Below are positions 42,900 to 64,000 of a stretch of 64,000 nucleotides of DNA, piece by piece; position 1 is the stretch's first letter, and the number at the start of each line of letters is the position of its first letter. A program made the position numbers and the translations under genes. Under the pieces are notes generated by a model. The model made no database searches. It saw nothing but the letters and a program-made list of their open reading frames with translations, and was not told where the DNA came from. Origin of the DNA: Paracoccus stylophorae (lineage in GTDB: Bacteria; Pseudomonadota; Alphaproteobacteria; Rhodobacterales; Rhodobacteraceae); the NCBI RefSeq assembly GCF_028553765.1, contig NZ_CP067134.1:3515001-3579000 (forward strand). The letters are read 5' to 3'.

Positions 42900-44030
42900 T
42901 CAGTTCAGTCCGGCGACCACCTCGGCGCGGCGGTCCATCCAGGCCTGGGCGAACTCCTCTTCGGACAGATCGGCATTCTGGGGCGCGAACTCTTCCCAGG
43001 CGGCGACCAGCGCGTCCAGCCGCTCAGTCCGTTTCTGGTTCCAGGCATCGTCTTCGTCCGTCCAGATGCCCTTTTCCTTCAGATAGCGGATGGCACCCTC
43101 GTGAAAGGGGACGTCGATGGCGGGTTTGCCCGACAGATCCAGCGACCAGCGCTTCATCGTGGCGGTGCCGTCCTTGTAGAGGTCATAGCTTTCGTCCAGC
43201 GCCTTGATGAACGCATAGACATCGTCGGCGGACTTGTCGGGCGTCGTGGTGATCACCGGATAGCGATAGGCGGCCATCTTGGCGATTTCGCCTTCCGGCA
43301 GGCCCGCCGCGATATCCTCGTCCGAGGGTCCCATGATCGGCAGCACGTTCAAAAGCTTGTTCCACCCGTCTTCGTTGTCGGCTTCAAGCGGCGCGTAAAA
43401 GATGCCGCGCGGACTTTCCGCAAGCTCGTATAACTGGCTGGTGGTGGGTGTCGTGCAGGTGGCGTCGGATTCGTTGCGCGTCATCGACGACATGGCCGCG
43501 GCATAGGTGGGAAAGGTGACGATCTCCACATCGTCCAGCGTCAGATCGCCGAACGCCAGGATCGCTTCGCATTTCACGTTGACCGAGGGGTTGCCGGCGA
43601 CGAATGCGATACGCTTGCCCTTGGCGTCGGCCACCGTCTCGATGCCGGCGTCGCCCGCCGCGATCAGCGTGATGCCGGCAGGCCGACCCGCCACGGCGCG
43701 CAGTTGCTGGGGCCCCCAGTCCTTGATGGCAAAGTCATAGGCGCCCTCGGACACGAAGAATGCCTCGGTCGCCAGGAACCCGTAATCGGCGCGACCGGTC
43801 AGCAGCGGTTGCAGCCGTCCGATGCCGCTGCCCGAGGGCTGGATGCGGACCCTGGTGCCGAACTCCTTGCCGAAGGCGTCGGCGATGGCCGATGCCTCGG
43901 CATAGCCCGCCGATCCGACGTCATAGGATGTCCAGACCATCGTGTCCGGCAGGTCCTGCGACACGGCAGGCAGCGCGGTCATGGCGGTCAGGGCAGCAAT
44001 CGCGACCCCCGGATACAGTCTGTTTTTCAT
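42900..44030 (-). CDS. TAXI family TRAP substrate-binding protein
   Basis: A 376-residue periplasmic binding protein with a signal peptide ending PAVSQ. Family marks are MVWTSYDVGSAGYAEASAIAD, VRIQPSGSGIGRLQPLLTGRADYGF, and VAGRPAGITLIAAGDAGIETVADAKGKRIAFV. It delivers the ligand to the fused permease encoded 72 bases downstream. GGAGG lies at good distance from ATG 44030. It is the first gene of the minus-strand operon in block A and is divergent from the LysR gene, which probably controls it. Confidence 0.9.
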   Translation of the reverse strand: MKNRLYPGVAIAALTAMTALPAVSQDLPDTMVWTSYDVGSAGYAEASAIADAFGKEFGTRVRIQPSGSGIGRLQPLLTGRADYGFLATEAFFVSEGAYDFAIKDWGPQQLRAVAGRPAGITLIAAGDAGIETVADAKGKRIAFVAGNPSVNVKCEAILAFGDLTLDDVEIVTFPTYAAAMSSMTRNESDATCTTPTTSQLYELAESPRGIFYAPLEADNEDGWNKLLNVLPIMGPSDEDIAAGLPEGEIAKMAAYRYPVITTTPDKSADDVYAFIKALDESYDLYKDGTATMKRWSLDLSGKPAIDVPFHEGAIRYLKEKGIWTDEDDAWNQKRTERLDALVAAWEEFAPQNADLSEEEFAQAWMDRRAEVVAGLN

Positions 44031-44189: not shown

Positions 44190-45116
44190 ATGGATCTTCG
44201 GCAGCTGCGTAATTTCATCCAGATCGTCGAGTTGAGCAGCATCACCGCCGCGGCCGAGCATCTGAACATCGCCCAGCCGGCGCTGAGCCGGCAGGTCAAG
44301 GCACTGGAAGAGGAGCTGAGCGTCCCGTTGCTGCGGCGGCACGGGCGCGGCGTCATGCCGACGGAAGAGGGTATCCGGCTTGCAAGGCGGGCCAAGACGA
44401 TCCTGGAAGACGTCAAGGATCTGGCCGCCGACGTATCGGGGAACAGCAAGACGCTGTCCGGCACGGTCACACTGGGACTGCCGCCCACCGTGGCCGAGAT
44501 CCTTGCCACCCACATGATCGAACGCACGATGCAGATGTTTCCCGATGTAAAGCTGCGGATTGTGTCGGGGTTCAGCGGCCATGTCCAGGACTGGCTGCTG
44601 CGCGGCAAGATCGACCTTGCTGTCGCCTATGCCGGACAGAAATCGGCATCGGTGGCCGCGCAACCGATCATCATCGAACAATTGTTCCTGATCCAGCCGC
44701 CAGACGGAAAAGACGTAGATGAAGGCGTGCCCATCGGCGCGCAGGACGCATTGCAGGACCGCCTGATCCTGCCCAATCCGGAACACGGGCTGCGGGCGCG
44801 TATCGACGGCATCGCCCACGAGCGGCGGATCGACCTGAACGTGGTGCTGGAAATCGACATCCTGCCCACCATGCTGGCCTTTGTCGAACGCGGGCTGGGC
44901 AGCACGATCCTGCCGCTGGTCACCGTCATCAACCATGTCCGCGCAGGCCGCCTGATCGCCCGCCCCATCGTGCGGCCCACCATCGACCGGACCCTGGTCC
45001 TGATGACGCCGCTGAACCGCCCCGATTCCCGCCTGACCAGCGGCTTCGCCGAGTTCCTGACCGGCGAAGTGCACCGGCTGGTAAGTTCGGGGCAATGGCC
45101 GGGAACGACGTTATGA
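44190..45116 (+). CDS. LysR family transcriptional regulator
   Basis: A 308-residue LysR-type regulator. The N-terminal winged helix-turn-helix is clear (MDLRQLRNFIQIVELSSITAA, AEHLNIAQPALSRQVKALEEEL), followed by the linker helix and a two-lobed co-inducer domain beginning TVTLGLPPTVAEILA. It is divergent from the TAXI-TRAP/CoA-transferase operon and followed by a CaiB-type CoA-transferase gene, so it probably senses the imported acid or its CoA ester. Dyad sites lie in the shared intergenic region. Confidence 0.93.
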   Translation: MDLRQLRNFIQIVELSSITAAAEHLNIAQPALSRQVKALEEELSVPLLRRHGRGVMPTEEGIRLARRAKTILEDVKDLAADVSGNSKTLSGTVTLGLPPTVAEILATHMIERTMQMFPDVKLRIVSGFSGHVQDWLLRGKIDLAVAYAGQKSASVAAQPIIIEQLFLIQPPDGKDVDEGVPIGAQDALQDRLILPNPEHGLRARIDGIAHERRIDLNVVLEIDILPTMLAFVERGLGSTILPLVTVINHVRAGRLIARPIVRPTIDRTLVLMTPLNRPDSRLTSGFAEFLTGEVHRLVSSGQWPGTTL

Positions 45117-45233: not shown

Positions 45234-46367
45234 ATGGACAATCGTCCCTTGGCAGGGCTGCTGGTGATGTCGGTGGAACAGGCGGTGGCGGCGCCCTACT
45301 GCACCGCGCGACTGGCCGATGCGGGCGCGCGCGTGATCAAGATCGAACGTCCCGAAGGCGATTTTGCCCGCTTCTACGACCGGGCCGCAGAGGGCGAAAG
45401 CAGCTATTTCGTCTGGCTGAACCGCGGCAAGGAATCCATCGCGCTGGATTTGAACACAGGCGCGGATCGCGACCTGCTGTTGTCGATGGCCGACAAGGCG
45501 GATGTGTTCGTCCAGAACCTCAAGCCCGGCGCGCTGGATCGCAAGGGTCTTGGCCCGGAAACGCTGCGCGCGCGCAACCCCCGCCTGATCGCATGTTCGA
45601 TCAGCGGCTATGGCGAAACCGGCCCCTATGCGGATCGCAAGGCGTATGATCTGCTGATCCAGGCCGAAAGCGGGCTTTCCAGTATCACCGGCGGACCCGA
45701 GGCGCCGGCGCGAGTGGGCATTTCCGTCGTCGATATCGCCACCGGGGCAGCCGCCCACGCCGCCATTCTGGAGGCGCTGATCGGACGCGGGACCAGCGGG
45801 CGCGGCACCGATATCCGGATCTCGATGTTCGACGTGATCGCCGACTGGCTGGCCGTGCCGTTCCTGCACGCGAAAAACGGCAACAGCCCCAGGCGGATCG
45901 GGCTCGCCCACCCCTCGATCTCGCCCTATGGGGTGTTCACGACGGCAGACGGGCAGGATCTGCTGATCTCGATCCAGAACGACCGCGAATGGGCCGCTTT
46001 CGCGGCGAAAGTGCTGGATCAGCCCGATCTGGCCACGCGACCCGGCTTTGCGACCAGCAATGAGCGCGTCGACAACCGTACCGCCGTTGACGCCAGGGTC
46101 GCGGCGGCGGTCGGTCGGCACAGCAAATCCGCGATGGCGGACATGTTGCAGGCGGCGGGGATCGCCTTCGCCGGCGTCAACGACATGGACGGTCTGATCG
46201 CGCATCCGCATCTGGCCCTGTCCCAGATCGGCACGCCGGACGGCGGGCAGGTCTTGGTGCCGGCTTCGGCCGCGCGGTTCGATGGCAGCCGCTATCTTGG
46301 CGCGGCGCAGATGCCCGCGCTGGATCAGCATGGGGCGACGATCCGTGCCGAGTTCAGCGGCGGCTGA
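45234..46367 (+). CDS. CaiB/BaiF (family III) CoA-transferase, Mct-like
   Basis: A 377-residue family III CoA-transferase. Typical blocks are VEQAVAAPYCTARLADAGARVIKIERPEGD, SYFVWLNRGKESIALDL, and SISGYGETGPYADRKAYDLLIQAESG, where D139 is the expected catalytic aspartate. It transfers CoA between carboxylic acids, or within one acid as in mesaconyl-CoA C1-C4 CoA-transferase, to which its architecture is closest by eye. That reading would fit the mesaconyl-C4-CoA-hydratase-like gene of block A, but other acids are equally possible. It follows lysR by 117 bases in the same direction. Confidence 0.88.
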   Translation: MDNRPLAGLLVMSVEQAVAAPYCTARLADAGARVIKIERPEGDFARFYDRAAEGESSYFVWLNRGKESIALDLNTGADRDLLLSMADKADVFVQNLKPGALDRKGLGPETLRARNPRLIACSISGYGETGPYADRKAYDLLIQAESGLSSITGGPEAPARVGISVVDIATGAAAHAAILEALIGRGTSGRGTDIRISMFDVIADWLAVPFLHAKNGNSPRRIGLAHPSISPYGVFTTADGQDLLISIQNDREWAAFAAKVLDQPDLATRPGFATSNERVDNRTAVDARVAAAVGRHSKSAMADMLQAAGIAFAGVNDMDGLIAHPHLALSQIGTPDGGQVLVPASAARFDGSRYLGAAQMPALDQHGATIRAEFSGG

Positions 46368-46375
46368 GCGCGCCC

Positions 46376-47818
46376 TCAGATCGCGCCCGAGATCATCAGC
46401 GACGATAAAAGCACGGACCAGACGGCCAGGATGGTCAGGCAATAGGGTCCGTTCCAGACCGGTCCCACCAATCCGACGGGGCGGTCGATGATGGCCGCGC
46501 AGATGATGATCGTCGTCATGAAGGGCGACAGTCCGATTACGGTCGTCCAGCCCCCGGTGATCGCCAGCGCGATGGCGGTCTCGCTGAGGCCGGGCACCGC
46601 AAGCTGGACGGCAATGGCCCCCAGGACCGACGCCGACACGATCGGGTTCACCCCCAGCATGGCCAGAAGCACGATGGACACCGCCAGCCCCAAGGCCATC
46701 GTCACCGCGCCAAGACCCAGCATGGCCACCGCCGCGCGCAGATCATCGACCGGGATCAGCGCCAGCAGGATGACCGGCAGAAAACCTGCCGAGGCGAAGA
46801 CCCCGACCTCGGCCCCCATGCCCGACAGCCGCCGCCATGTCGCGCGGGCTACCTGGGCCATGCCCGCCGCCGGACCTGCCGGTTGAGCGCGCGTCGATAC
46901 CGCTGCCCAGATCACCGAATATACCGGCACGGCGATGATCAGCGCCTGCTGAAAGCCAAGCGTCGAGATGCCGTGCAGCAGAAACACCACCGCGCCCAAC
47001 GTCACGACATGCCCGACCAGGATTGCCGCGCCGATCCACGCGTTTGCAGGCGGGCTGGGGCGCGGCAGACCCATCTGGCGAAAGCGCCGCCCCTGCCACC
47101 GGTCGAACGCCCAGCCGATGGCGACGAAGACGAACGACATAGCAAAGCCGATCGGGCCGAACTGGACATAGGAAATGCCGGGCAGCGTGATCAGGATCGC
47201 ATTGGTCGCAAAGCCGAAGGGCGACCACAGCGAGATCATGCCAAAGCCGCGCAGGATCGCCATCGTCATGCGCCTCAGCTTGGCCTCTTGCGCCTCGGGC
47301 GGCAGCTTGGCCGTGGCCTCGGACGTCATCGAGCGGGAGGCCAGATCCAGAAGCAGCGCGAGGCCGCCGAAATTGATCAGCACGCCGAACAGATGGCCGC
47401 CGAAATTCAGCGCCAGATAGCGGCGCGAGGCAGGTTGGCCGGTCAGGAACACGCCGGCGCGGCCGACCTCGGGGGCCAGGGAAGCAGCGGATCGCAGCGT
47501 GCCCAGCATCGCGATCAGCGCGGCCAGAAACAGCATCCGTTCGGCGGCCTCTGTCAGCACCGTCGCCGGCACCCCGCGATGCAGGGCCAGCGCAAGCCCC
47601 GCCAGCGACAGGATCACCGGCACCCAGGTGCCGACGCTGAACTGCCGCCAGCACAGCGCAAGAAACAGCGCCAGCGCGGCAGACGCCGACAGGACCAGCC
47701 AGACGGGCTGGACAAAGATCAGCGCGACCGCCGCCAGCATCACGAACGACATCAGCGCCCGCCGAAGCGGCGTCACCAAATCGTCGCCAACGCCCCGCTG
47801 GCCCCTTGCCGTCAGCAT
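46376..47818 (-). CDS. Multi-spanning membrane protein, putative organic-acid permease
   Basis: A 480-residue inner-membrane protein with roughly 12 hydrophobic helices, two of them near YLALNFGGHLFGVLINFGGLALLLDL and FGMISLWSPFGFATNAILITLPG. The second half repeats that logic with GVNPIVSASVLGAI and WTTVIGLSPFMTTIIICAAI, reminiscent of the two-repeat organisation of IT-superfamily carriers. I do not recognise a specific family. It is the last gene of the block B operon, overlapping the crotonase gene by 7 bases, which suggests it transports the substrate or product. The start is uncertain: M23 at 47752 is an alternative. Confidence 0.65.
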   Translation of the reverse strand: MLTARGQRGVGDDLVTPLRRALMSFVMLAAVALIFVQPVWLVLSASAALALFLALCWRQFSVGTWVPVILSLAGLALALHRGVPATVLTEAAERMLFLAALIAMLGTLRSAASLAPEVGRAGVFLTGQPASRRYLALNFGGHLFGVLINFGGLALLLDLASRSMTSEATAKLPPEAQEAKLRRMTMAILRGFGMISLWSPFGFATNAILITLPGISYVQFGPIGFAMSFVFVAIGWAFDRWQGRRFRQMGLPRPSPPANAWIGAAILVGHVVTLGAVVFLLHGISTLGFQQALIIAVPVYSVIWAAVSTRAQPAGPAAGMAQVARATWRRLSGMGAEVGVFASAGFLPVILLALIPVDDLRAAVAMLGLGAVTMALGLAVSIVLLAMLGVNPIVSASVLGAIAVQLAVPGLSETAIALAITGGWTTVIGLSPFMTTIIICAAIIDRPVGLVGPVWNGPYCLTILAVWSVLLSSLMISGAI

Positions 47819-48573
47819 CCGGTGAACCGCGGCGTCCTTTTTTCGCGAAAGGCCGCGCGCCCTTCGGCCGCGTCGCTGCTGTTCAGCAGGTTCGGCTGAT
47901 GCTGCTGTTCGTAATCCAGCGCGGCGGCAATATCGCGGGCGAACCAGTCGGTGATCAGTTGCCGGGGCAAGGGTGCGCCTGCGGCCTCCTCCAGCGCCAG
48001 CGCGCCCGCCAGACGGACGGCATCGCCGGGATCGGCCAATTCATCCGCGATGCCCAATGTCAACGCCTCGTCGGCGTCGACAGGACGGTTGCTCAGCATG
48101 ATCCGGCGCGCCCGCGACGGGCCGATGCGGGCGGGCAAGGTGGCCAGCAGACCCATATCGGGGATCAGCCCGATCTTCGTGAAACTGGTCACGAAACGCG
48201 CGTCGCGCGCGGCCACGACCGTCGGACAGGCCAGCGCCAGCGCGAAACCGCCGCCCGCCGCCCAGCCTTCGACGGCGGCGGCCAGGGGTTTGGAAAAACC
48301 GGTCATGCGCCCGACCAGATCCTTGATCGTGGCAAAACGCTCGCGATGCTGCGACAGGCTGCGCTGGCCCTGATCGCGAATGTCGCCGCCGGCCGAAAAA
48401 TGCCCGCCCGCGCCCGTCAGCACGACCGCCCGCACCCCGTCGTCGGCCTCTGCCCTGGACAGCGCGTGAACCAGTGCCGTCCGCACCGAATGACCGACGG
48501 GATTGCGGCGATCGGGTTCGTTCAGCGTGATGACCAGCAGGCCATCGCCCTTGGATTCCGTCCTGATACTCAT
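47812..48573 (-). CDS. Enoyl-CoA hydratase/isomerase family protein (PaaG-like)
   Basis: A 253-residue crotonase. The CoA site is FSAGGDIRDQG, and the oxyanion hole is in VEGWAAGGGFALALAC. The first hydratase Glu is replaced (GGGFAL where GGGxEL is expected), and the second region reads FTKIGLIPDMG, carrying the Asp typical of PaaG-type isomerases and enoyl-CoA isomerases. It is more likely an isomerase than a hydratase. ATGA overlap with the MaoC gene upstream and a 7-base overlap with the permease downstream place it in the block B operon. Confidence 0.88.
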   Translation of the reverse strand: MSIRTESKGDGLLVITLNEPDRRNPVGHSVRTALVHALSRAEADDGVRAVVLTGAGGHFSAGGDIRDQGQRSLSQHRERFATIKDLVGRMTGFSKPLAAAVEGWAAGGGFALALACPTVVAARDARFVTSFTKIGLIPDMGLLATLPARIGPSRARRIMLSNRPVDADEALTLGIADELADPGDAVRLAGALALEEAAGAPLPRQLITDWFARDIAAALDYEQQHQPNLLNSSDAAEGRAAFREKRTPRFTGC

Positions 48574-49433
48574 CCCGCCTCCCGGTGCCGGAACACCCCG
48601 TTCCCGATGACGATCTTGTCGCGTTCCACCGCGCGGGTCCGGAATGAGCCATCGGCCCAGATTTCGGTCCGCAGGGTTTCACCCGGAAACACATGCGCGG
48701 TAAAACGTCCATCCATCGAGCCGAAGCGGTCCGCGTCGTAATCGCACAGCACCGCCAGCACCGCATGCGCCGCGCAGCCAAAGCTGCACAGACCATGCAG
48801 GATCGGACGGTCAAACCCCGCACTGGCCGCCACGCGCGGGTCCAGGTGCAGCGGGTTGGGATCGCCGTTCCAGCGGTAATGCAGCGCCTGTTCGGGCCGG
48901 GTGGGCGTGTCGAACACGTGATCCGGCGGCGTCGCTGGCAGCGGATGGGGGGTCTTGACCGGGCCTGTGGGGCCGCCGAAGCCGCCATCGCCGCGCAGGA
49001 AGGTGGTGCCGCGACAGGTCGCCAGATGCGTTCCGCTGTCCTCGTCCCTGACGGTCTTTTCGGAATACAGCAGCGCCCCCCGCCCCGCGCCCTTGTCGAT
49101 CAGCCCGGTGACGCGGGTCTTGGCGATCACCGTGGCCGCGACCGGGATCGGGGCGTGGATGGTCATGCCCTGTTCGCCATGCACGACCTTCAGCGCATCG
49201 ACGCCGGTCGAGGGGTCGCTGAGCCAGAAACCGGGATGGCCCAGCACGTTGACGATGGCCGGCATCGCCCGGACATCGTCGGCCAGCCCGCCGACATAGG
49301 GCAACTGCCGCATATCCATCGGGTCCTGCCCCAGCCCGATGGACAGCCCGTACCGCGCCACATCGCCCGGACCATAGCTTTGCCGGACCGCCGGGATGTC
49401 GAAGTTCAGCAGGTGATGGGGATCAATCGCCAT
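48570..49433 (-). CDS. MaoC-type R-specific enoyl-CoA hydratase
   Basis: A 287-residue double-hotdog hydratase of the hydratase 2/MFE-2 type. The active-site motif is HYRWNGDPNPLHLDPRVA followed by GFDRPILHGLCSFG, with Asp and His as catalytic dyad. It should hydrate a trans-2-enoyl-CoA to the R-3-hydroxyacyl-CoA. The start 49433 leaves an 11-base overlap with the upstream synthetase gene; its stop overlaps the crotonase start (ATGA). An R-specific SDR dehydrogenase is encoded at the other end of the block, which would complete an MFE-2-like pair. Confidence 0.9.
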   Translation of the reverse strand: MAIDPHHLLNFDIPAVRQSYGPGDVARYGLSIGLGQDPMDMRQLPYVGGLADDVRAMPAIVNVLGHPGFWLSDPSTGVDALKVVHGEQGMTIHAPIPVAATVIAKTRVTGLIDKGAGRGALLYSEKTVRDEDSGTHLATCRGTTFLRGDGGFGGPTGPVKTPHPLPATPPDHVFDTPTRPEQALHYRWNGDPNPLHLDPRVAASAGFDRPILHGLCSFGCAAHAVLAVLCDYDADRFGSMDGRFTAHVFPGETLRTEIWADGSFRTRAVERDKIVIGNGVFRHREAG

Positions 49434-51537
49434 CGTCCGGCTTCCCCTCTTCCAAGTCGATGACGGCGTCCAGGGCAAAGGCGCCCTGCCCGTCCGGCAA
49501 TGCCAGCACCGGGTTCAGGTCGATCGATCTCAGCCGGGGTCCTGCACCGGCGGCAAAGGCCGACAGCCGCGACAGCATCTGCGCCAGCGCCGCGATGTCG
49601 GCAGGCGGCTGGCCGCGCGCGCCCTGCAAAAGGGCTGCACCACGGATCGACAGGATCATCTGCCGTGCCGTGTCGGGATCGAATGGACAGGCGTGCAGGG
49701 CGACGTCGTTCATCAGCTCGACATAGATCCCGCCCAGCCCAAACACCGCGATCGGCCCGAAGGTCGGATCGCGGTTGATGCCCATCAGGCATTCGACCCC
49801 GCCGGACAATTGCTTCGCCACAAGAACGCCGCGAATGGCGGCCTGCGGCGCATGGGTCGCGGCGGCATCCATGATCGCGGCATAGGCGGCGCGGACGCCC
49901 TTTGCATCACAGATATCCAGCCTGACCGCGCCGATATCCGATTTGTGCAGGATGTCCGGCGACAGGATCTTCAGCACAACGGGATAGCCGAAATCCTCGG
50001 CTGCGCGCACGGCAGCCTCGGCGTCCTGCACCGACCGTTCGGGCGCGGCGGGAATCCCCGCCTCCGCCAGGATCGACTTGGCCCCGGCCTCATCCGGGGT
50101 GCTGTCGGGCAAGGCGACCGGCCGCACCTGCGGCGCGGGCCTGTCGGGCCGCGCGCCACCGGCGCCGATCCGCAGAACGGCATCCAGCGCACGTGCCGCG
50201 CGGCAGGGATCGTTGAACACCAGGATACCCGCGTCGTCATAGCGGCGCAGCACGTCGGGCTGGCCCAGGGCGCAAAAGGCGATGATCCGGTCGGGATAAG
50301 CCTTTCGCAGCGGCGTCATCGCCTGCAGGATCACGTCCGACATGGACGGGCTGCCCGCGACATAGGTCAGGAAACACAGCACCGCACCATACCCGCCATC
50401 CTCCAGCGCGGCGCGGGTGAAGGTTTCCAGCAGCGACGGATCGTTCAGCGCCTGCGCCGTGCAATCCAGCGGATTGACCGGAGAGGCATAGGGCAGCACC
50501 TGTTTCAGCCGTGCCTGCGCCGCCGCCGGCATCGGCGGCATGGGCAGGCCGATCCTTTCGGCCTCGTCGCTGATGACGATGCCCGCGCCGCCGCTGACCG
50601 TGATCACGCCCAAGGAATGCCGCGTCGGCATGATTCTTTTCGAGGCCGCATAAGCGATATCCATCATCGTTTCAGGGTCGCGCAGGATGATCGCGCCGTG
50701 ATCGGCAAGCACCGCATCGGCCACCACCGCATCGCCCGTCAGCGAGGCCGTGTGCGACGCCGCCGCCCGCGCACCCACGGCCGAGCGTCCGGATTTCAGC
50801 GCCAGCACCGGCTTGCCCGCCGCCCGCGCCGCATCCAGCGCCGCCAGCAGCGCGGGCGCGTCGTTCACCGCCTCCATATAGGCGCAGATGACATCGGTGC
50901 CGTCGCTTTCGACCATCCAGCGGATCGCATCGGCCACGGTGATATCGGCCTCGTTTCCGGTCGTGATCAGCACCGAACAGCCCAGTCCCCGGTCCCGCGC
51001 CAGCGCCCCCAGATGCGCGCCGAACGCGCCCGACTGGCTGGCGATACCGATATTGCCCGGACGCGGATGGCTGGTGTCCAGCGAGGATGAGAACGTGCCG
51101 TAATAGCCGATATCGACGTTATAGACGCCAAGCGTGTTCGGCCCCAGCAGCCGGATTCCATGAGACCGCGCCAAGGCGGTCAGTTCCTTCTGCGCGGTTT
51201 CGCCCGCAATACCGGTTTCGGCAAATCCGGCCGAGAACAGGGTCACGGCCTTGCAGCCCTTGCGCCCCAAGGCGGCGATGGTTTCGGGAACCATCAGGGC
51301 AGGCACGGCGATCAGCGCGGCGTCGGGGGCCTGAGGCAGATCGTCCACCGTTGCAAAGCATGGCAGACCCTGCACGCTGTCGCGTTTCGGGTTCACCGGC
51401 AGGATTCGGCCCGTATACCCCGCGCGCAGCATCGCGGCGATGGGTCTGCCGCCGATCCGCGTGACATCCTCGGATGCGCCGATCACCGCGACCGAGCGCG
51501 GCGCGACCAGCCCGTCGATATGCGCAATTCCGGTCAC
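49423..51537 (-). CDS. ADP-forming acyl-CoA synthetase (acetate-CoA ligase family)
   Basis: A 704-residue NDP-forming acyl-CoA synthetase with fused alpha and beta parts. Order: CoA-binding Rossmann domain (APRSVAVIGASEDVTRIGG), two succinyl-CoA-synthetase-like domains with the phospho-histidine H262 in SHTASLTGD, then the ATP-grasp domain (FGYPVVLKILSPDILHKSD). It activates a carboxylic acid to its CoA ester with ATP, giving ADP. The GTG at 51537 overlaps the upstream thiolase-like stop by four bases (GTGA) and leaves a normal N-terminus. It would supply block B with its first thioester. Confidence 0.92.
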   Translation of the reverse strand: MTGIAHIDGLVAPRSVAVIGASEDVTRIGGRPIAAMLRAGYTGRILPVNPKRDSVQGLPCFATVDDLPQAPDAALIAVPALMVPETIAALGRKGCKAVTLFSAGFAETGIAGETAQKELTALARSHGIRLLGPNTLGVYNVDIGYYGTFSSSLDTSHPRPGNIGIASQSGAFGAHLGALARDRGLGCSVLITTGNEADITVADAIRWMVESDGTDVICAYMEAVNDAPALLAALDAARAAGKPVLALKSGRSAVGARAAASHTASLTGDAVVADAVLADHGAIILRDPETMMDIAYAASKRIMPTRHSLGVITVSGGAGIVISDEAERIGLPMPPMPAAAQARLKQVLPYASPVNPLDCTAQALNDPSLLETFTRAALEDGGYGAVLCFLTYVAGSPSMSDVILQAMTPLRKAYPDRIIAFCALGQPDVLRRYDDAGILVFNDPCRAARALDAVLRIGAGGARPDRPAPQVRPVALPDSTPDEAGAKSILAEAGIPAAPERSVQDAEAAVRAAEDFGYPVVLKILSPDILHKSDIGAVRLDICDAKGVRAAYAAIMDAAATHAPQAAIRGVLVAKQLSGGVECLMGINRDPTFGPIAVFGLGGIYVELMNDVALHACPFDPDTARQMILSIRGAALLQGARGQPPADIAALAQMLSRLSAFAAGAGPRLRSIDLNPVLALPDGQGAFALDAVIDLEEGKPDDGD

Positions 51538-52688
51538 AACACCGCCCCGGACCCAAGGATCGCCGTGCATTGGCTGGACAGCGTGCCGCCATTGCCGTGG
51601 CACAGCGCCAGATTGCAGTCCTGAACCTGCCGCTTGCCGGTCTGGCCGCGAATCTGCGCGACGGCCTCGGCGATCAGGAACAGCCCGTACATGCCCGGAT
51701 GCACGCAGGACAAGCCGCCGCCATTGGTGTTCACGGCCAGTTCTCCTCCGGGTGCGATGCGGCCATCCTCGACGAAACGCCCGCCCTCGCCCTTGGGGCA
51801 GAAGCCCAGATCCTCAAGGAACAGGATCGTGTTGATGGTGAATGCGTCATACAGCATCGTCAGATCCAGATCCGCGCGATCGACCCCGGCCATCGCAAAC
51901 GCGCGCCTGCCGCTGTCCACGGCGGCGGTGGTGGTCAGATCCGGCATCTCGACGATGGAGCGGTGGTAATTCGCCACCCCCGCGCCCAGAAAATAGACCG
52001 GCTTTTCGTGCAGGTCCCTGGCCCGGTCGGCGCGGGTCAGAACGACGGCCGCCGCGCCATCGGTGACCAGACAGCAATCCGCCTTGGTCAGCGGGTCCGA
52101 GATCATGCGTGCCGACAGCACCTCGTCCCTGGTCAACGGACCGCGCGCGAAGGCCTGGGGGTTCAGGTTCGCCCATCCGCGCGCCGCCAGCGCCACATCG
52201 GCCAGCTGTTCGCGGGTGGTGCCGAACTGCGCCATGTGCCGGCTGGCGGCCAGCGCATAGGCGGTAATCGGATGACGCGGATGATAGGGCGTCTCGTGCC
52301 ATTGCGGCTCGCTCATGGAGACCAGCTTGCCGCCCGCCGTCCGCTGGTTCGAGCCATAGCAGATCAGCGCGGCATCACACAGCCCGGCCTCCAGCGCCAT
52401 CGTCGCCTGCAGCAGGTGCATCTCGAAGCTGGAGCCGCCGACATTGGTGCCGTCGAAAAACCGCGGCCTCAGCCCCAGATATTCGACCACGCTCATCGTC
52501 GGAAAGGCGTGACCGCTGGTGGCGGCGAAGACCGCGTCGATATCCTGCAACGCCAGCCCGGCATCGGCGACGGCGGACACGGCGGCCTGGCCCAGAAGCT
52601 CCATCGCTGAAAATCCGGGGGCCTCGCCCATGCCTGCGGTCGCCATGCCGACAATCGCGGATTTGCCGCGCAAGTGCCTGCCGCTCAT
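51534..52688 (-). CDS. Thiolase-like protein lacking the nucleophilic Cys (SCP-x/Ltp2-like, DUF35 partner)
   Basis: A 384-residue thiolase-fold protein of the nonspecific lipid-transfer/SCP-x group. The region where classical thiolases carry the acylated Cys reads FFDGTNVGGSSFEMHL (77-92), with G84 where Cys is expected. The C-terminal parts VNTNGGGLSCVHPGMYG and LCHGNGGTLS are kept. Relatives without this Cys, such as Ltp2, pair with a DUF35 protein and cleave 3-hydroxyacyl-CoA by retro-aldol chemistry. A DUF35 gene lies directly upstream with ATGA overlap, supporting that reading. Residue 1 is the ATG at 52688. Confidence 0.88.
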   Translation of the reverse strand: MSGRHLRGKSAIVGMATAGMGEAPGFSAMELLGQAAVSAVADAGLALQDIDAVFAATSGHAFPTMSVVEYLGLRPRFFDGTNVGGSSFEMHLLQATMALEAGLCDAALICYGSNQRTAGGKLVSMSEPQWHETPYHPRHPITAYALAASRHMAQFGTTREQLADVALAARGWANLNPQAFARGPLTRDEVLSARMISDPLTKADCCLVTDGAAAVVLTRADRARDLHEKPVYFLGAGVANYHRSIVEMPDLTTTAAVDSGRRAFAMAGVDRADLDLTMLYDAFTINTILFLEDLGFCPKGEGGRFVEDGRIAPGGELAVNTNGGGLSCVHPGMYGLFLIAEAVAQIRGQTGKRQVQDCNLALCHGNGGTLSSQCTAILGSGAVL

Positions 52689-53080
52689 GCCCCGCTCTCC
52701 TCGATCAGGCTATCCTCGATCAGATCGAACACGACGCGCGGACCGTCCGGCGCATCCTCGATCCGCGCCCTGACGCGGGCGCCGATCGGTGCGGTTTCCA
52801 CGTCCGGCAGGGTCGACATCATGCGAACGCCCTCATCCAGGTCGATCAGCGCGACGTTGTAAGAACCGCTGCGCCCGCGGTTCACGGTGATCGCGTGGAC
52901 GATGCCGGTTCCCCTGACCTCGACCCAGTCCAGATCGGTTGCCCCCGATGGCGTCGTGACGCGCGGATAGAAGACGTATTCCCCCGTGCTTTTCGCGCGC
53001 TGGATCATGAACCGGCCTTCCGCCAGATGCCTTTCATAGGCGGCCTGCGGCCCGAGGGCGGCTGTTTCGGTCTGCGTCAT
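52685..53080 (-). CDS. DUF35 OB-fold protein, zinc-ribbon cysteines lost
   Basis: A 131-residue OB-fold DUF35 protein. The layout is normal: an N-terminal helix (AAYERHLAEGRFMIQRAKSTG), a rubredoxin-like ribbon region, then DLDWVEVRGTGIVHAITV and the OB strand set. The ribbon normally has four cysteines (CxxC twice); here the protein contains no cysteine, with QRAKSTGEY and VTTPSGATDL in those places. It should bind the thiolase-like protein encoded next to it (ATGA overlap), as ChsH2-type DUF35 does with Ltp2. The metal-free ribbon is unusual but known in some relatives. Confidence 0.88.
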   Translation of the reverse strand: MTQTETAALGPQAAYERHLAEGRFMIQRAKSTGEYVFYPRVTTPSGATDLDWVEVRGTGIVHAITVNRGRSGSYNVALIDLDEGVRMMSTLPDVETAPIGARVRARIEDAPDGPRVVFDLIEDSLIEESGA

Positions 53081-53105: not shown

Positions 53106-53525
53106 TCAGCCGCCCCAGTCCAGAACCAGATGCGTCTGGGTGGTGACGGCCGCGATCTTGCCGTCCTGGCGCGTCATGGTGACCTGCAACACCGAGGTCG
53201 TCCGGCCCGCATGCAGCGGCACGCAGCGCGCCGTCAGCGTGTCGCCGACCTTGACGGCGCGGATGAAGTTCGTCTTTGCCTCGACGGTGGTGTTGGTCCT
53301 GTCGGCAGGGCTGTTGATGAAGGCCGCGCTGCCTGCGGCGTTGTCGGCCAGCGTCATCAGCGCACCGCCATGCAGCACGCCGTTGCGGTTGGCCATCTGC
53401 GGCGTCACCTTCATGCGGCAGACGACCTCGTCGGGGGTGACCGAGACGATCTCGATCCCCAGCAATTCCGCAAAGCTGGATTGCGGCGGCATGTCCTGCA
53501 ATGTGCGGTTCGGCGCACGTGTCAT
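53106..53525 (-). CDS. PaaI-type hotdog thioesterase
   Basis: A 139-residue hotdog thioesterase of the PaaI/YdiI group. The active-site motif is NRNGVLHGGALMTLADNAAG, with the following FINSPADRTNTTVEAKTNFIRA typical for the group. It hydrolyses acyl-CoA esters, often to rescue CoA from dead-end intermediates. The ATG at 53525 overlaps the dehydrogenase stop by four bases. It lies 25 bases before the DUF35 gene in the same operon. Confidence 0.9.
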   Translation of the reverse strand: MTRAPNRTLQDMPPQSSFAELLGIEIVSVTPDEVVCRMKVTPQMANRNGVLHGGALMTLADNAAGSAAFINSPADRTNTTVEAKTNFIRAVKVGDTLTARCVPLHAGRTTSVLQVTMTRQDGKIAAVTTQTHLVLDWGG

Positions 53526-54694
53526 GATCGCCCCGCACGCTCGGCCAATGTGCGGCGGGCGATCACCAGCTGCTGGATCTGGCTGGTGCCCTCGTAGATC
53601 CGCAGCAGGCGGATATCGCGATACATCCGCTCGATGTCGTATTCGGCCATGTAACCCGCGCCGCCATGGATCTGCAGCGCCCGGTCGGCGATGCGACCTG
53701 CGGCCTCGGTGCAGAAATACTTGGTGCAAGAGGCCTGAAGGATCGCCTTTCCCTCGCGGTCGAAGGTCTCGGCCGTCGCGCGGACCAGTGCGCGCGCGGC
53801 ATGCAGATCGGCCTGGCAATCGGCCAGCAGCCCCTGCACCAGCTGATGTTCGCCGATCGGCTTGCCGAACTGCCTGCGCTCCAGCGCGTAATCGGTGGCA
53901 AGATCCACCATGCGCTGGCTTTGACCGACGGCCATCGTTCCGACATGGATGCGGCCCCGGTCCAGCACCTTCATGGCGGTGCGAAAGCCCTGGTGCAGCC
54001 GTTCCGGTCCGCCGATGATCGCGCTTTCGGGCACGCGCACGTCCTGGAAGACCACATCCGAGGTCTTGGTGCCGCGCTGACCCATCTTGCGGTCGGCTTT
54101 GGCCACGGTGATGCCGGGCGTATCGGCCGGCACGATGAATGCCGATACACCGTCGGCGCCTTGCTTGTCGGGATCGGTCCGGGCAAACACGGTGAAGACA
54201 TGGGCGCGCAGGGCATTGGTGATATATCGCTTGGTTCCGTTGATCACGAAATCCGATCCGTCGCGCCGCGCCGCCGTGCGGATTCCGCCGGCATCCGATC
54301 CGTTGTCAGGCTCGGTCAATGCGAAAGAGGTCATGACATCACCGCTTGCGATGCCGGGCAGCCAATCCTGCTTTTGCTGCGCGGTTCCGTCCATCACGAT
54401 CCCCTGCGCGCCGATGCCGACATTGGTGCCGATCAGCGACCGAAAGGCCAGCGAGGCGTAACACAGCTTTTCGATCAGCCGCGATTCCTGACTGACGTTC
54501 ACCCCGACCCCGCCATATTCCTGGGGTGTGGTCAGACCGAACAGTCCCATCTCCTTCATTTCGGCGACGATGTCGGCGGGGATGTCGTTTTCTTCCTCGA
54601 CGCGCTTTTCGGCGGGGATCAGCCGCTCGCGCGCGAATCGGTCCACCGCGGAAACGAGCTGTTCAAAAACATCCTGATCTACGCCGGCTGACAT
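53522..54694 (-). CDS. Acyl-CoA dehydrogenase
   Basis: A 390-residue canonical acyl-CoA dehydrogenase. Visible marks are FGLTTPQEYGGVGVN, SFALTEPDNGSDAGGIRTAA, KMGQRGTKTSDVVFQDVRVP, RRQFGKPIGEHQLVQGLLAD, LQIHGGAGYMAEYDIERMYRD and the catalytic Glu in RIYEGTSQIQQLV. It introduces a trans-2 double bond into an acyl-CoA and passes electrons to ETF. It is the first gene of the block B minus-strand operon, with the IclR operator 32 bases upstream. Confidence 0.94.
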   Translation of the reverse strand: MSAGVDQDVFEQLVSAVDRFARERLIPAEKRVEEENDIPADIVAEMKEMGLFGLTTPQEYGGVGVNVSQESRLIEKLCYASLAFRSLIGTNVGIGAQGIVMDGTAQQKQDWLPGIASGDVMTSFALTEPDNGSDAGGIRTAARRDGSDFVINGTKRYITNALRAHVFTVFARTDPDKQGADGVSAFIVPADTPGITVAKADRKMGQRGTKTSDVVFQDVRVPESAIIGGPERLHQGFRTAMKVLDRGRIHVGTMAVGQSQRMVDLATDYALERRQFGKPIGEHQLVQGLLADCQADLHAARALVRATAETFDREGKAILQASCTKYFCTEAAGRIADRALQIHGGAGYMAEYDIERMYRDIRLLRIYEGTSQIQQLVIARRTLAERAGRS

Positions 54695-54725: not shown

Positions 54726-54760
54726 ATTCTGTATAGTGAATGCTATTCTGTAAAGGGAAT
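54726..54760. promoter_or_regulatory. Tandem IclR-type operator
   Basis: Two copies of a 16-base dyad, ATTC-N8-GAAT, lie at 54726-54741 and 54745-54760, 19 bases apart. Both also share ATTCTGTA as their first half. They fill the 69-base interval between the divergent dehydrogenase and iclR genes; the second copy overlaps the iclR ribosome site (AAGGGA), which fits autorepression and control of the catabolic operon. Confidence 0.65.
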
Positions 54761-54763
54761 AAT

Positions 54764-55558
54764 ATGGCCGACGATGCCGGACAGAAGATCGTGCCCGCCG
54801 TCCAGAACGCGATCAGCATCCTGCGGCTGCTGTCAGCCCAGGGCAGTCCGATGGGGGCCACGCAGATCGCGCGGGAAACCGGGCTGAACGTGTCGTCGGT
54901 CTTCAACATCCTGCGCACGCTGAGCCATGAGGGCATCGTCAATTTCGACCCCGAAACCAAGACCTACCGGATCGGCATGGGCGTGATCGAATTTGCGGTG
55001 CCGGTGCTTGGCGCCGATCCGGCAGACGTGATCCGTCCGCTGGTGAACGCCATCGCGCAGGAACATCAGGTGATGATCGCGCTGTGGCAGTTTACCGAAA
55101 ACGACCGCATCGTTCTGATCGACCGTTTCACCGCGCCGCGCATCGTGCAGGCGGTGATCGCCCGTGGCAGCCGCCTGCCCGTTTTCGCCGGCGCCATCGG
55201 CCGCTGCTATGCCGCGACGCTTGGCCTGGACAAGGAGACCACGCGCAAAGGCTATGCGGGCGTCCGCTGGCAATCCGCGCCGGGGTTCGAACGCTATTGG
55301 CAGGATGTCATCCTGGCGCGTCGAACAGGCACCAGCCACGACAGCGGCCATCTTTTCCGCGGGCTGGACATGGTCGCAGCCCTTGCCCGCGATGCAAGGG
55401 GCACGCCCCGGATCGGGCTGAGCGGCATCAGCATATCGGGTCAGCACGAGGCGGACGGGCTTGCACATCTGGCAGGCGCGCTGGTCGACGCGGCCGGTCG
55501 GATCGAACGCGGCCTGTTCGGCAGAAACGCCGCCTGCCGCACAACCAACGGAGAATGA
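54764..55558 (+). CDS. IclR family transcriptional regulator
   Basis: A 264-residue IclR-type regulator. The N-terminal winged helix (ISILRLLSAQGSPMGATQIARETGLNVSSVFNILRTL without the tail) reads DNA, followed by the wing EGIVNFDPETKTYRIG and an effector domain that includes DRIVLIDRFTAPRIVQ. IclR members bind small acids or CoA-pathway intermediates and usually repress a catabolic operon. The ATG at 54764 is supported by AAAGGGA; the in-frame ATG at 54740 lies inside the operator repeats. It is divergent from block B, and the SDR gene follows it after 2 bases. Confidence 0.93.
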   Translation: MADDAGQKIVPAVQNAISILRLLSAQGSPMGATQIARETGLNVSSVFNILRTLSHEGIVNFDPETKTYRIGMGVIEFAVPVLGADPADVIRPLVNAIAQEHQVMIALWQFTENDRIVLIDRFTAPRIVQAVIARGSRLPVFAGAIGRCYAATLGLDKETTRKGYAGVRWQSAPGFERYWQDVILARRTGTSHDSGHLFRGLDMVAALARDARGTPRIGLSGISISGQHEADGLAHLAGALVDAAGRIERGLFGRNAACRTTNGE

Positions 55559-55560
55559 GA

Positions 55561-56481
55561 ATGCCGACAGCAAAACCCCTTGACGGAAAGGTCGTTCTGG
55601 TCACCGGCGCCGGAGGCGGCATCGGCCGCGCCATCGCCATCGAGGCCGCGCGCGCCGGCGCATCCGTCGTCGTCAACGACCTGGGCGCAACGCTGGACGG
55701 TCAGCGCGAATCCAGCGTCGCAGCCGAAGACGCCGTGGCGCAGATCGAAAAGGCCGGCGGTCGCGCCGTCGCCAACGGCGACGACGTGTCGCAGCCGGAC
55801 GGGGCCCAGGCAATGGTGCGGCAGGCCACGGACGCGTTCGGCCGGCTGGACGCGGTCGTCAACAATGCCGGCATCCTGCGCGACGGCTTCTTTCACAAGA
55901 TGACCTATGAAAACTTCGACGCGGTGGTGAAGGTGCATCTTTACGGCAGTTTCAATGTCAGCCGCGCCGCAGCCGACGTCATGCGCCAGCAGAATTCGGG
56001 CAGCATGATCCACATGACATCAACCTCGGGGCTGATCGGCAATCTGGCGCAGGCGAATTATTCGGCGGCCAAGCTGGGCGTCGCCGCGCTGTCGAAATCC
56101 ATTGCGCTGGATCTGAAACGCTGGAACATCCGCTCGAACTGCATCGCCCCCTTCGCCTGGAGCCGGATGACCTCGTCGATCAAGATCGACAGCCCCGAAC
56201 AGGAAGAGCGCGTCAACCGCATGAAGGAAATGTCGCCCGACAAGATCGCACCCGTGGCGCTGTTTCTGGCATCGGACGAAGGCGCGGACACGACCGGCCA
56301 GATATTCGCCGTGCGCAACAACGAGATTTTCCTGATATCGCAGCCGCGCCCGCTGCGCTCGGTCCATCGAGGCGAGGGCTGGACGATCGACAGCGTCCGC
56401 GATCAGGCGATCCCGGCGCTGCGCCCGTCCTATGTGCCGCTGGACGTGTCGGCAGATGTATTTTCATGGGACCCGGTCTGA
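55561..56481 (+). CDS. SDR dehydrogenase, MFE-2-like (3R-hydroxyacyl-CoA)
   Basis: A 306-residue short-chain dehydrogenase. The nucleotide motif is TGAGGGIGRAIA, followed by VVNDLGATLDGQ typical of the dehydrogenase part of peroxisomal MFE-2 (17beta-HSD4); the catalytic set has NNAGI, S in TSTSGLIGN, and YSAAK. It should oxidise an R-3-hydroxyacyl-CoA with NAD, the next step after the R-specific hydratase of block B. The ATG at 55561 follows the iclR stop by two bases; an ATG six bases earlier is also possible. Co-transcription with iclR is likely. Confidence 0.9.
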   Translation: MPTAKPLDGKVVLVTGAGGGIGRAIAIEAARAGASVVVNDLGATLDGQRESSVAAEDAVAQIEKAGGRAVANGDDVSQPDGAQAMVRQATDAFGRLDAVVNNAGILRDGFFHKMTYENFDAVVKVHLYGSFNVSRAAADVMRQQNSGSMIHMTSTSGLIGNLAQANYSAAKLGVAALSKSIALDLKRWNIRSNCIAPFAWSRMTSSIKIDSPEQEERVNRMKEMSPDKIAPVALFLASDEGADTTGQIFAVRNNEIFLISQPRPLRSVHRGEGWTIDSVRDQAIPALRPSYVPLDVSADVFSWDPV

Positions 56482-56598: not shown

Positions 56599-58305
56599 TC
56601 AACGCCGGTCTGCGTCGGCCTTCTTGCGGGCGGCGTCGCGCAGCTTGCCGATGGTGGTGCGGGTCGAGATCTGGTCGGGGTCGGTGACCAGTTCGATCAG
56701 CGCCGGGCGACCGCTTTGGCGGGCGCGGGCAAAGGCGGCGGCGAAATCGGCGGTTCTGGTGACACGCTCGGCATATGCGCCAAGACCCTCGGCCATCTTA
56801 ACGAAATCCGGATTTTGCAGGGTGGTGCCCGAAATCCGTTCGGGATGGTCGCGTTCCTGATGCATCCGGATGGTGCCGTACATCCCGTTGTTGAACAGCA
56901 GCACGATGGGTCGCCCGCCATGTTGCGCGGCGGTGGCAAGTTCGTTCCCGCTCATCATGAAGCCGCCGTCGCCCACGAATGACACTGTCAGCCGCTCGGG
57001 CCGGGCAATCGAGGCGGCGACGGCGGCAGGCACCGAATAGCCCATCGCCCCGCAGGTAGAGCCGATGATCCGCCCCGGCCGACCAAAGCGCAGGAATCGC
57101 TGCGCCCACCCGGTGTGGTTGCCGGCATCGAGCGTGATCACCGCGTCATCGGGCAAGTCGTCGCGCAGCTGTGCCAGCGCCACGCCCATGTCGAGATCCC
57201 GTTCCCCGTCCTCGGGCGCCTCGGTGTCGGCCAGATAGTCGGCGTGCAGCCTGTCGCACCAGCCGCCCCATGCCTGCGCCCGCCCCAGATCGACCCCGTC
57301 CAGTGCGGCGGCGACCGAGACAGGGGCGGCTGCGATACCGAGATCGGGCGAATAGACGCGGCCGATCTCATCCGCGTCGGGATGGACATGCACCAGCCGG
57401 GTTTCGGGATTGGGCGAACGGATCGTGCTGTAGGTTTTGGTCGTCATCTCGCCCAGACGCGCGCCGATCACGATCAGCAGATCCGCCTCGCGCTGATGGG
57501 CATAAAGCGCGGGCGCGGTCGAGGTGCCGAAATCCCCGGCATAGACGGGCGAGAGATTGTTGACGATATCCTGCCGCCGGAACGAGGTCGTGACCGGAAT
57601 CCTGTTCGCCTCGGCGAACCGGGTGATGGCGGCGGCGCTGGCGTCGGACCAGCCCGAGCCGCCAAGCAGCAGCATGGGCCGTTCGGCCCGCGCAATCTCG
57701 GCCGTCAGCATCCGAAGATGTTCGGCCGAGAGGGCGGCATGGGTGGCGCTGTAGGGGCGCGCATCGGGGACGCAGACGGTCTGCGTCAGCATGTCCTCGG
57801 GAAGCGAGATCACGACCGGACCGGGCCGGCCCGACGTCGCCACGCGAAAGGCGCGGGCCATGTATTCGGGCACGCGCGCGGGATCGTCGATCTGGGCGGC
57901 CCATTTGGCAATCGGGCCGAACATGGCGCGATAGTCGATTTCCTGAAACGCCTCGCGGTCGGTCGTGCCGCGCGCGATCTGACCGATCAGCAGGATCATC
58001 GGCGTGCTGTCCTGCTGCGCGATATGCACGCCGATGGCGGCATGGCAGGCTCCGGGGCCGCGCGTGACCATGCAGATCCCCGGCCTGCCGGTCAGCTTGC
58101 CATGGGTTTCGGCCATGTTGGCGGCCCCGGCCTCGTGCCGCGCATTGATGAGGCTGAACCTGTCCCGGACGTCATGCAGCGCATCCAGCACCTCGAGATA
58201 ACTTTCGCCGGGCACGCAATAGGCGGTGTCGGCACCGTGGATCAGCAATTGATCCACAAGGATCTGACCGCCGGTCCGAGGCTTGGGGGATGTGTCATGC
58301 GGCAT
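56599..58305 (-). CDS. Thiamine-diphosphate-dependent enzyme, acetolactate-synthase-like
   Basis: A 568-residue ThDP enzyme with the three-domain pyruvate oxidase/ALS architecture. The Glu that activates the cofactor is E58 in NARHEAGAANMAE. The ThDP-Mg motif GDGGFMMSGNELATAAQ is near residue 443 and ends in LLFNNGMYGTIR. No FAD or small regulatory subunit gene is nearby, which is unlike biosynthetic acetolactate synthase. It could decarboxylate a 2-oxo acid or be a lyase for 2-hydroxyacyl-CoA. GGAGGA lies at a good distance before ATG 58305. It ends block C at a terminator. Confidence 0.85.
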   Translation of the reverse strand: MPHDTSPKPRTGGQILVDQLLIHGADTAYCVPGESYLEVLDALHDVRDRFSLINARHEAGAANMAETHGKLTGRPGICMVTRGPGACHAAIGVHIAQQDSTPMILLIGQIARGTTDREAFQEIDYRAMFGPIAKWAAQIDDPARVPEYMARAFRVATSGRPGPVVISLPEDMLTQTVCVPDARPYSATHAALSAEHLRMLTAEIARAERPMLLLGGSGWSDASAAAITRFAEANRIPVTTSFRRQDIVNNLSPVYAGDFGTSTAPALYAHQREADLLIVIGARLGEMTTKTYSTIRSPNPETRLVHVHPDADEIGRVYSPDLGIAAAPVSVAAALDGVDLGRAQAWGGWCDRLHADYLADTEAPEDGERDLDMGVALAQLRDDLPDDAVITLDAGNHTGWAQRFLRFGRPGRIIGSTCGAMGYSVPAAVAASIARPERLTVSFVGDGGFMMSGNELATAAQHGGRPIVLLFNNGMYGTIRMHQERDHPERISGTTLQNPDFVKMAEGLGAYAERVTRTADFAAAFARARQSGRPALIELVTDPDQISTRTTIGKLRDAARKKADADRR

Positions 58306-58423
58306 CTTGAAGATCCTCCGTTCCGTTCGCTTGAATGGGCGCAACGCGCTCTTTCCCCATTCCAGAAATCCTGGCGGAAAAGTCCAGCTTCACACGGTCC
58401 CGGTTTTCCGCGATCAGATCATT

Positions 58424-60756: not shown

Positions 60757-61169
60757 GGGGCACCTCCGGGCACGCGCTTGAACACGCCGGTCGCGGTCGC
60801 GATCAGGGTGCCGTCGTCATGGACAAGCTCGGCCGCGACGAACAGCAGGCTGCGCCCGCCGCCGATGATGCGGCCGGTGGCGGTGACGCCGCCCGGACGC
60901 CCCGCGCCGATGAAATCGGTATTCAGCGACACCGTCAGGAACGGCCGCCGCCCGGTGTCGTCCAGCGTCAGGCTGGCCGTCGCGCCGGCCGCGCTGTCCA
61001 GCAGCATCGCCGCGATGCCGCCATGAAGCACGCCGTGGCGGTTGGTGTGCCGGTCGTCCACCACCAGCCGGCAGCGGGCGCGGCGGTCGGGCTGGCCCAC
61101 GTCCAGCGCATAGCCGACCAGCCGCTGCGTCCCAGTTTCGCCCAGGATGATGCCGTCGCCCCCGCTCAT
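60753..61169 (-). CDS. PaaI-type hotdog thioesterase
   Basis: A 138-residue hotdog thioesterase. The motif is DDRHTNRHGVLHGGIAAMLLDSAAG, followed by VSLNTDFIGAGRPGGVTATG. It hydrolyses acyl-CoA intermediates. ATGA overlaps join it to the dehydrogenase upstream and the crotonase downstream. It is the second gene of this type in the window and only loosely similar to the one in block B. Confidence 0.9.
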   Translation of the reverse strand: MSGGDGIILGETGTQRLVGYALDVGQPDRRARCRLVVDDRHTNRHGVLHGGIAAMLLDSAAGATASLTLDDTGRRPFLTVSLNTDFIGAGRPGGVTATGRIIGGGRSLLFVAAELVHDDGTLIATATGVFKRVPGGAP

Positions 61170-62164: not shown

Positions 62165-62177
62165 GACAAGGGTCTCC

Positions 62178-63385: not shown

Positions 63386-64000
<615 letters not shown>

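Follow-up and report, generated by a model that had tools for sequence, protein, structure and literature searches.

A predicted thiolase-fold retro-aldolase with a DUF35 partner that lacks zinc ribbon ligands

A 64,000-nucleotide stretch of contig NZ_CP067134.1 (the window, referring here to the whole stretch) encodes two overlapping genes, one for a thiolase-like protein and one for a DUF35 protein. We consider it fairly probable that the two proteins form a complex, in which a thiolase-fold retro-aldolase is joined by a DUF35 protein without zinc ribbon ligands, and that Tyr280 and His330 would act on an acid-derived 3-hydroxyacyl-CoA. The nucleophilic Cys of thiolases is lost and the Tyr of the steroid aldolases is present, and thus the pair probably cuts C-C bonds otherwise than thiolases do. 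What is new is, probably, a widespread subfamily of thiolase-fold aldolases with another acid residue and, in the lineage of the window, a ribbon-free DUF35. The features at the center of this prediction are:

51534..52688, reverse strand: thiolase-fold protein without the nucleophilic Cys, predicted retro-aldolase (384 amino acids; Gly85, Tyr280-Asp-Ala282-Phe, His330)
52685..53080, reverse strand: DUF35 / OB_ChsH2_C protein with 0 Cys, translationally coupled partner (131 amino acids)
52434..52439, reverse strand: codons of Gly84-Gly85; Gly85 (52434-52436) is in the thiolase nucleophile column
51840..51851, reverse strand: codons for Tyr280-Phe283, the YDAF motif, which aligns with Ltp2 YDHF and Sal YDCY
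51699..51701, reverse strand: codon of His330, the thiolase GHP His, in the slot of Ltp2 Tyr344 and Sal Gln352

The codon positions in the last three lines were computed from the protein numbering.

The gene pair and its predicted active site

The stop of the DUF35 gene and the start of the thiolase-like gene, both on the reverse strand, share a four-base ATGA overlap (52685-52688). The coordinates and the translational coupling given in an original prediction, made from this DNA alone, were right. The thiolase-like protein belongs to the NCBIfam family NF004811 (PRK06158; 659.6 bits, cut-off 421), and comparison with known structures indicates that the thiolase fold is present. It scores far above the cut-off of the Thiolase_C_1 model (223, cut-off 28), barely above that of Thiolase_C (27.3, cut-off 27) and below that of Thiolase_N (19.6 bits, cut-off 26.4). 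The family is labeled acetyl-CoA acetyltransferase, which implies thiolase chemistry, but the missing Cys of the window member speaks against the label.

When aligned with the sequences of PDB chains, the Cys nucleophile of SCP2-thiolase, BbsB, the P. furiosus thiolase and the archaeal AACT falls on Gly85, the His of HDCF/HDAF on Tyr280 and the GHP His on His330. Thus, the CxS Cys is replaced by Gly, the HDxF His (or NEAF Asn) is replaced by Tyr and the GHP His is retained, a site that differs from the ordinary HDAF/GHP thiolase site in two residues (Cys to Gly and His to Tyr). The original prediction had placed Gly84 in the nucleophile column; the column is one residue further on, but the point stands because both residues are Gly. 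It had also described the protein as cysteine-less, which is incorrect, as there are nine Cys (104, 110, 205, 206, 297, 328, 358, 363 and 374) and only the nucleophile is gone.

For the comparison with the known aldolases, the offset of the Sal chain was fixed on the published Tyr302, after which Gly89, Gln161, Tyr165, Arg216, Gln347, Gln352 and Gly391 matched; Tyr294 and Tyr344 of Ltp2 agreed without any offset. In this alignment Gly85 corresponds to Sal Gly89, Tyr280 to Sal Tyr302 and Ltp2 Tyr294, Ala282 to Sal Cys304 and Ltp2 His296, His330 to Sal Gln352 and Ltp2 Tyr344, Gly325 to Sal Gln347 and Gly368 to Sal Gly391. Tyr302 is the proposed base and Cys304 the acid of Sal, in which Gly in the Cys slot precludes thiolysis according to its authors, and the same paper gives Tyr294 as base and Tyr344 as acid of Ltp2 (PMC12329534). 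Judged from the aligned residues, the window protein is one in which the predicted aldolase base is kept and the acids of both Sal and Ltp2 are replaced. Of the Ltp2 active-site tyrosines to which attention had been drawn earlier, the base is found at Tyr280, whereas the acid Tyr344 is His330 and the nearby Ltp2 His296 is Ala282.

Because His330 occupies the slot of Ltp2 Tyr344 and is the old GHP His of thiolases, we propose a Tyr280-His330 pair, with His330 as the putative acid. Sal Cys304 mutants, including Cys to Ala, are inactive (PMC12329534), and thus the window enzyme, with Ala282, must differ there. In the predicted model of the thiolase-like protein, the loops concerned in the Tyr280/His330 geometry are low in confidence.

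Conservation and phylogeny

We assembled a near set from the best 80 of the genome loci of 194 relatives, fetched by six peptide patterns. Across these loci and the window, Gly85, Tyr280, Asp281, Ala282, Phe283, Cys328 and His330 are each conserved in 81/81, although the invariance of YDAF is partly built in because one of the six patterns contained it; Gly84 occurs in 80/81. Gly85 occurs together with Tyr280 in all 40 relatives that were fetched by profile rather than by pattern. A DUF35 gene was found at 79 of the 80 loci, directly adjoining on the same strand in 77, and the two genes share an in-frame four-base overlap in 64/79. The NF004811/PRK06158 subfamily is widespread: of 289 genomes sampled from the class of the window, which is presumably Alphaproteobacteria judging by the nearest named matches, 40 exceed its cut-off and 66 have a match at 1e-100. 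No functional account of this subfamily was found in the open-access literature.

A wider alignment of 92 rows comprised the window, 14 near loci, 8 references (seven PDB chains and one locus protein), 40 relatives picked from 92 other matches in the sampled genomes of the window's class, and 29 rows taken from 33 other Thiolase_C_1 matches in 80 genomes, including the second member in the window's genome. The combination of Gly and Tyr is present in 68 rows, Ltp2 and Sal among them, and that of Cys and His in 23; one row is truncated at the first column and mixed states are absent (0), counts that are not independent because the rows are related. Rows are coded below by the residues at four diagnostic columns (Gly85, Tyr280, Ala282 and His330 in the window protein), e.g., GYAH or GYSH.

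These four columns were left out of a tree of 79 rows, built by a quick method and rooted by outgroup, in which a branch with support 100 separates the 64 Gly/Tyr rows from the 15 Cys/His rows. The nucleophile state changes once on this tree, and both Sal and Ltp2 fall among the Gly/Tyr rows, with Ltp2 on a long branch and 22 of the 76 inner branches open. Retro-aldol cleavage by the pair, as originally predicted, gains from the Gly/Tyr state shared with Ltp2 and Sal on the same side of a fully supported branch; the reaction itself is one that we infer.

It is unlikely, in our view, that the protein is still a thiolase or acyltransferase with a relocated Cys nucleophile, for which Cys328, two positions ahead of His330, would be the most plausible candidate. 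The invariance of Cys328 in the window and the 80 near loci, close to His330, would fit such a move, and the dehydrogenase of the operon could supply a 3-ketoacyl-CoA. However, the Cys328 column holds Cys in only 32 of 44 GYAH rows (otherwise Tyr in 8, Phe in 3 and Asp in 1) and in 0 of 20 GYSH rows, the His partner of HDxF is Tyr as in aldolases, and the window's genome also has thiolases with Cys. Cys205, Cys206 and Cys297 are also found in the ordinary SCP2-thiolase and in BbsB, and are thus not replacement nucleophiles. We rejected a relocated Cys as the principal explanation given the replacement of Cys328 in 12/44 GYAH and 20/20 GYSH rows.

Less probable still is a steroid side-chain aldolase, i.e., an ortholog of Ltp2 or Sal. 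The window protein shares their side of the tree and their base Tyr, but both acid positions differ, and the starred set of 31-32 GYAH rows that contains it on the quick tree holds neither Sal nor Ltp2. The window's genome has a single PF01796 match, the protein's own DUF35 partner, and a search of that genome with one marker family of steroid ring degradation, HsaA, gave no match. This candidate was rejected on acid residues, tree grouping and, as far as these few markers show, genome content.

Several other relatives have variant sites. Some with Gly/Tyr carry a Cys one residue past the nucleophile column (GGC; L100, L112-L118, L128-L129 and L141). L119 and L131 have the Sal-type Gly, Tyr, Cys and Gln; the quick tree places L131, but not L119, with Sal. 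On the same tree L148, a Gly/Tyr/Ser/His row on a long branch, falls with L119 and apart from the remaining GYSH rows.

The DUF35 partner

The original prediction that the DUF35 protein has no Cys and has lost the usual four-Cys ribbon is borne out: we counted 0 Cys, and the score against Pfam zf-ChsH2 is 16.2 bits, under the cut-off of 23.2. The OB-fold model is matched at 44 bits, over the cut-off of 27.1. The predicted structure has an ordinary DUF35 fold (pLDDT 86), with the Ltp2 partner 6ok1_B as the best fold match by E-value and further matches to DUF35 chains in the BbsAB and 6esq complexes. Sequence and model together thus back a DUF35 without ribbon ligands, and from the residues present we would expect the protein to carry no metal.

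Among 79 related DUF35 proteins, the ribbon segment has 0 Cys in 76 and 1 Cys in 3. Of 64 tree rows to which a DUF35 state could be assigned, ribbon ligands are kept in 32 and absent in 32 (the states of two rows were set from the Sal paper, PMC12329534), with eight or more changes of state on the quick tree. The ribbon-free DUF35 is therefore a recurrent variant; we read the changes as repeated loss, although change counts cannot tell gain from loss. The DUF35 homologs compared in the Sal paper have four-Cys zinc, with the Cys3His1 of Shy as the outlier (PMC12329534), and the SSO2064 paper calls the architecture of zinc ribbon plus OB-fold conserved in all DUF35 homologs (PMC2954200). We found no account of a zinc-free DUF35 in the open-access literature. 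In the Ltp2 system, DUF35 seems unimportant for aldolase or hydratase activity (PMC11321319), and thus the safer guess for the window DUF35 is a structural role.

Genomic context

The genes surrounding the pair, with the number of the 80 related loci at which each occurs as a neighbor, are:

42900..44030, reverse strand: TAXI-type TRAP solute-binding protein (TIGR02122, 161.5 bits, cut-off 84.35); 29/80
44190..45116, forward strand: LysR-type regulator; 26/80
45234..46367, forward strand: CaiB-type (family III) CoA-transferase; 30/80
46376..47818, reverse strand: permease-like hydrophobic protein of 480 amino acids, judged membrane by eye from the sequence; homologs at 23/80
47812..48573, reverse strand: enoyl-CoA hydratase/isomerase family protein; 40/80
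48570..49433, reverse strand: MaoC-type enoyl-CoA hydratase with two hot-dog regions, start inferred; 62/80
49423..51537, reverse strand: NDP-forming acyl-CoA synthetase, its inferred GTG start overlapping the thiolase stop by 4 bases (start at 51603 in the open reading frame list); 62/80
53106..53540, reverse strand: hot-dog (4HBT/PaaI-like) thioesterase, start inferred; 25/80
53522..54694, reverse strand: acyl-CoA dehydrogenase; 24/80
54740..55558, forward strand: IclR-type regulator, divergent; 45/80
55561..56481, forward strand: short-chain dehydrogenase/reductase, start inferred; 58/80

Among the 64 loci whose flanks are complete, 51 have the CoA ligase, 50 the short-chain dehydrogenase, 49 the MaoC hydratase and 39 the IclR regulator. 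The TAXI-type TRAP protein may possibly take up an acid substrate. No Pfam or NCBIfam family matched the permease-like protein at the thresholds applied. The operon neighbors are generic acyl-CoA genes below equivalog cut-offs, and thus no substrate can be named from gene context. The short-chain dehydrogenase could also point to an ordinary keto route, which weighs against an aldol route as the only one.

Thiolase-fold enzymes without the Cys can stabilize an enolate, and the pair could, although this is improbable, decarboxylate or hydrolyze a beta-keto or malonyl-type thioester and perform no thiolysis. TbSLP, a relative with YDCF and no nucleophile, is a very slow decarboxylase of malonyl-CoA (kcat 0.005 per s), but Sal showed no such activity, and TbSLP is itself proposed to be an aldolase by the Sal authors (PMC12329534). 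The hydratase neighbor also argues against this reading, as it points to a 3-hydroxyacyl-CoA.

Equally doubtful are an aldol-type synthase, working in the forming direction, and a thiolase-like subunit that is a catalytically dead scaffold. Aldol reactions are reversible, but the neighbors, with functions in acid uptake, CoA ligases, acyl-CoA dehydrogenases and regulators, have a catabolic look. PhlA provides a precedent for an inactive thiolase-fold partner (PMC2954200). However, inactive PhlA partners an active thiolase subunit, whereas 79 of the 80 loci have a single match to the window protein at E 1e-30, and a catalytic role is favored by the fact that Tyr280 and His330 do not vary.

A second, SCP2-type thiolase (match above 500 bits) is encoded at 4/80 loci, and the copy in L037 carries Cys, HDCF and GHP. 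An aldehyde dehydrogenase (match above 500 bits) is found at 6/80 loci, all Pseudomonas. These additional enzymes suggest a division of labor, in a minority of loci only. The Pseudomonas clusters (L037, L043-L045, L052 and L054) have the same pair in another setting, with the aldehyde dehydrogenase, and offer a substrate lead; the L037 aldehyde dehydrogenase comes nearest to the benzaldehyde dehydrogenase MdlD, with a score below the cut-off.

Further acyl-CoA genes were identified in the window and its genome. At the right edge, the C-terminal part of a canonical thiolase (63386-64000, reverse strand, running past the edge; L152) has NEAF, GHP and CIGGG motifs, and its catalytic Cys is in the N-terminal part beyond the window. 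Another Cys/His member of the superfamily is encoded elsewhere in the genome (L083). A second acyl-CoA cluster (56599-62236, reverse strand) comprises a thiamine pyrophosphate enzyme (PRK08199), an AMP-forming ligase, an enoyl-CoA hydratase that is oxepin-CoA hydrolase-like (310.7 bits, cut-off 300) and an acyl-CoA dehydrogenase nearest, below cut-offs, to the pimeloyl-CoA dehydrogenase small subunit and IpdE2. At the threshold applied, none of these four genes turned up next to the 80 related loci.

Proposed reaction

What we infer for this pair comprises the reaction and the direction in which it runs, the parts played by Tyr280, Gly368 and His330, the formation of a complex and the absence of metal. 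A carboxylic acid would be taken up by the TRAP-TAXI system and activated by the NDP-forming CoA ligase, the acyl-CoA dehydrogenase would desaturate the acyl-CoA, and the MaoC hydratase would then hydrate it to the 3-hydroxyacyl-CoA, which is probably not a steroid. Tyr280 would take the proton of the 3-hydroxyl, the C2-C3 bond would break, and the resulting acyl-CoA enolate, held in an oxyanion hole to which the Gly368 backbone (Sal Gly391) contributes, would be protonated by His330, the retained GHP His. Cleavage would yield an aldehyde or ketone besides acetyl- or propionyl-CoA. DUF35 would be a structural partner whose fold is held without zinc. In the Ltp2 system, an unfavorable hydration is pulled by aldol cleavage (PMC11321319).

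Some substrate leads were followed outside the locus. A link to the lignin proteins VceA/VceB was dropped, as VceB is described as a thioesterase, and a literature search on cyclohexylacetate found nothing relevant. EC 4.1.3.35 would give a possible substrate type. IpfE of ibuprofen degradation is a DUF35 protein. We looked at ipfDE as a precedent, in which a thiolase-like step yields propionyl-CoA.

Ltp2 and Sal, the characterized thiolase-fold aldolases compared here, act on steroid side chains. It is nearly as likely as not that the window protein represents a third class of thiolase-fold aldolases (Tyr-His, versus Tyr-Cys in Sal and Tyr-Tyr in Ltp2) that acts on non-steroid 3-hydroxyacyl-CoAs, is common in the window's class and found in Pseudomonas, and has a ribbon-free DUF35 in several lineages, and that many genes annotated as thiolase or acetyl-CoA acetyltransferase encode aldolases. 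If so, public genomes carry the wrong name for a common catabolic step, and other such aldolases would be found by a rule of two residues (Gly plus Tyr versus Cys plus His). A general acid would be supplied in a third way within one fold, and DUF35, described as a zinc protein, could manage without its ribbon.

Comparison with known systems

The complex of Ltp2 with the DUF35 domain of ChsH2 from Thermomonospora curvata (PDB 6ok1) resembles the window pair in the thiolase fold, Gly in the Cys slot, the Tyr base of YDxF and the DUF35 partner. Unlike Ltp2, the window protein has His330 for the acid Tyr344 and Ala282 for His296, and a steroid substrate is not indicated. In the Ltp2 system, ChsH2 combines a DUF35 and a MaoC domain (PMC11321319), and the DUF35 has a four-Cys zinc finger (PMC12329534), whereas that of the window is a separate protein with 0 Cys.

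The bile acid aldolase Sal-Shy(DUF35) of Comamonas testosteroni (PDB 9myr) shares with the window pair the Gly (Gly89/Gly85), the Tyr (Tyr302/Tyr280) and the association with a hydratase and a DUF35. Unlike Sal, with its Tyr302-Cys304 dyad, the window protein has Ala282 for the essential acid Cys304, Gly325 for Gln347 and His330 for Gln352. The zinc finger of Shy is of the Cys3His1 type (PMC12329534) and its MaoC is fused, whereas in the window the 131-amino-acid DUF35 stands alone and MaoC is encoded by a separate gene.

We know of no function for 4u4e, a putative thiolase from Sphaerobacter thermophilus, and no paper on it was found in an open-access literature search. It is 48% identical to the window protein over the aligned part and has the same Gly and Tyr state with the His kept, but differs in Ser for Ala282 and Tyr for Cys328. 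The benzoylsuccinyl-CoA thiolase BbsAB and the archaeal thiolases (7pxp, 7yvy and 6esq) have the same fold and GHP His as the window protein, and the HDAF of BbsB and 7yvy has the same Ala as the window YDAF. These enzymes keep the nucleophilic Cys and the His, whereas the window protein has Gly and Tyr in their place.

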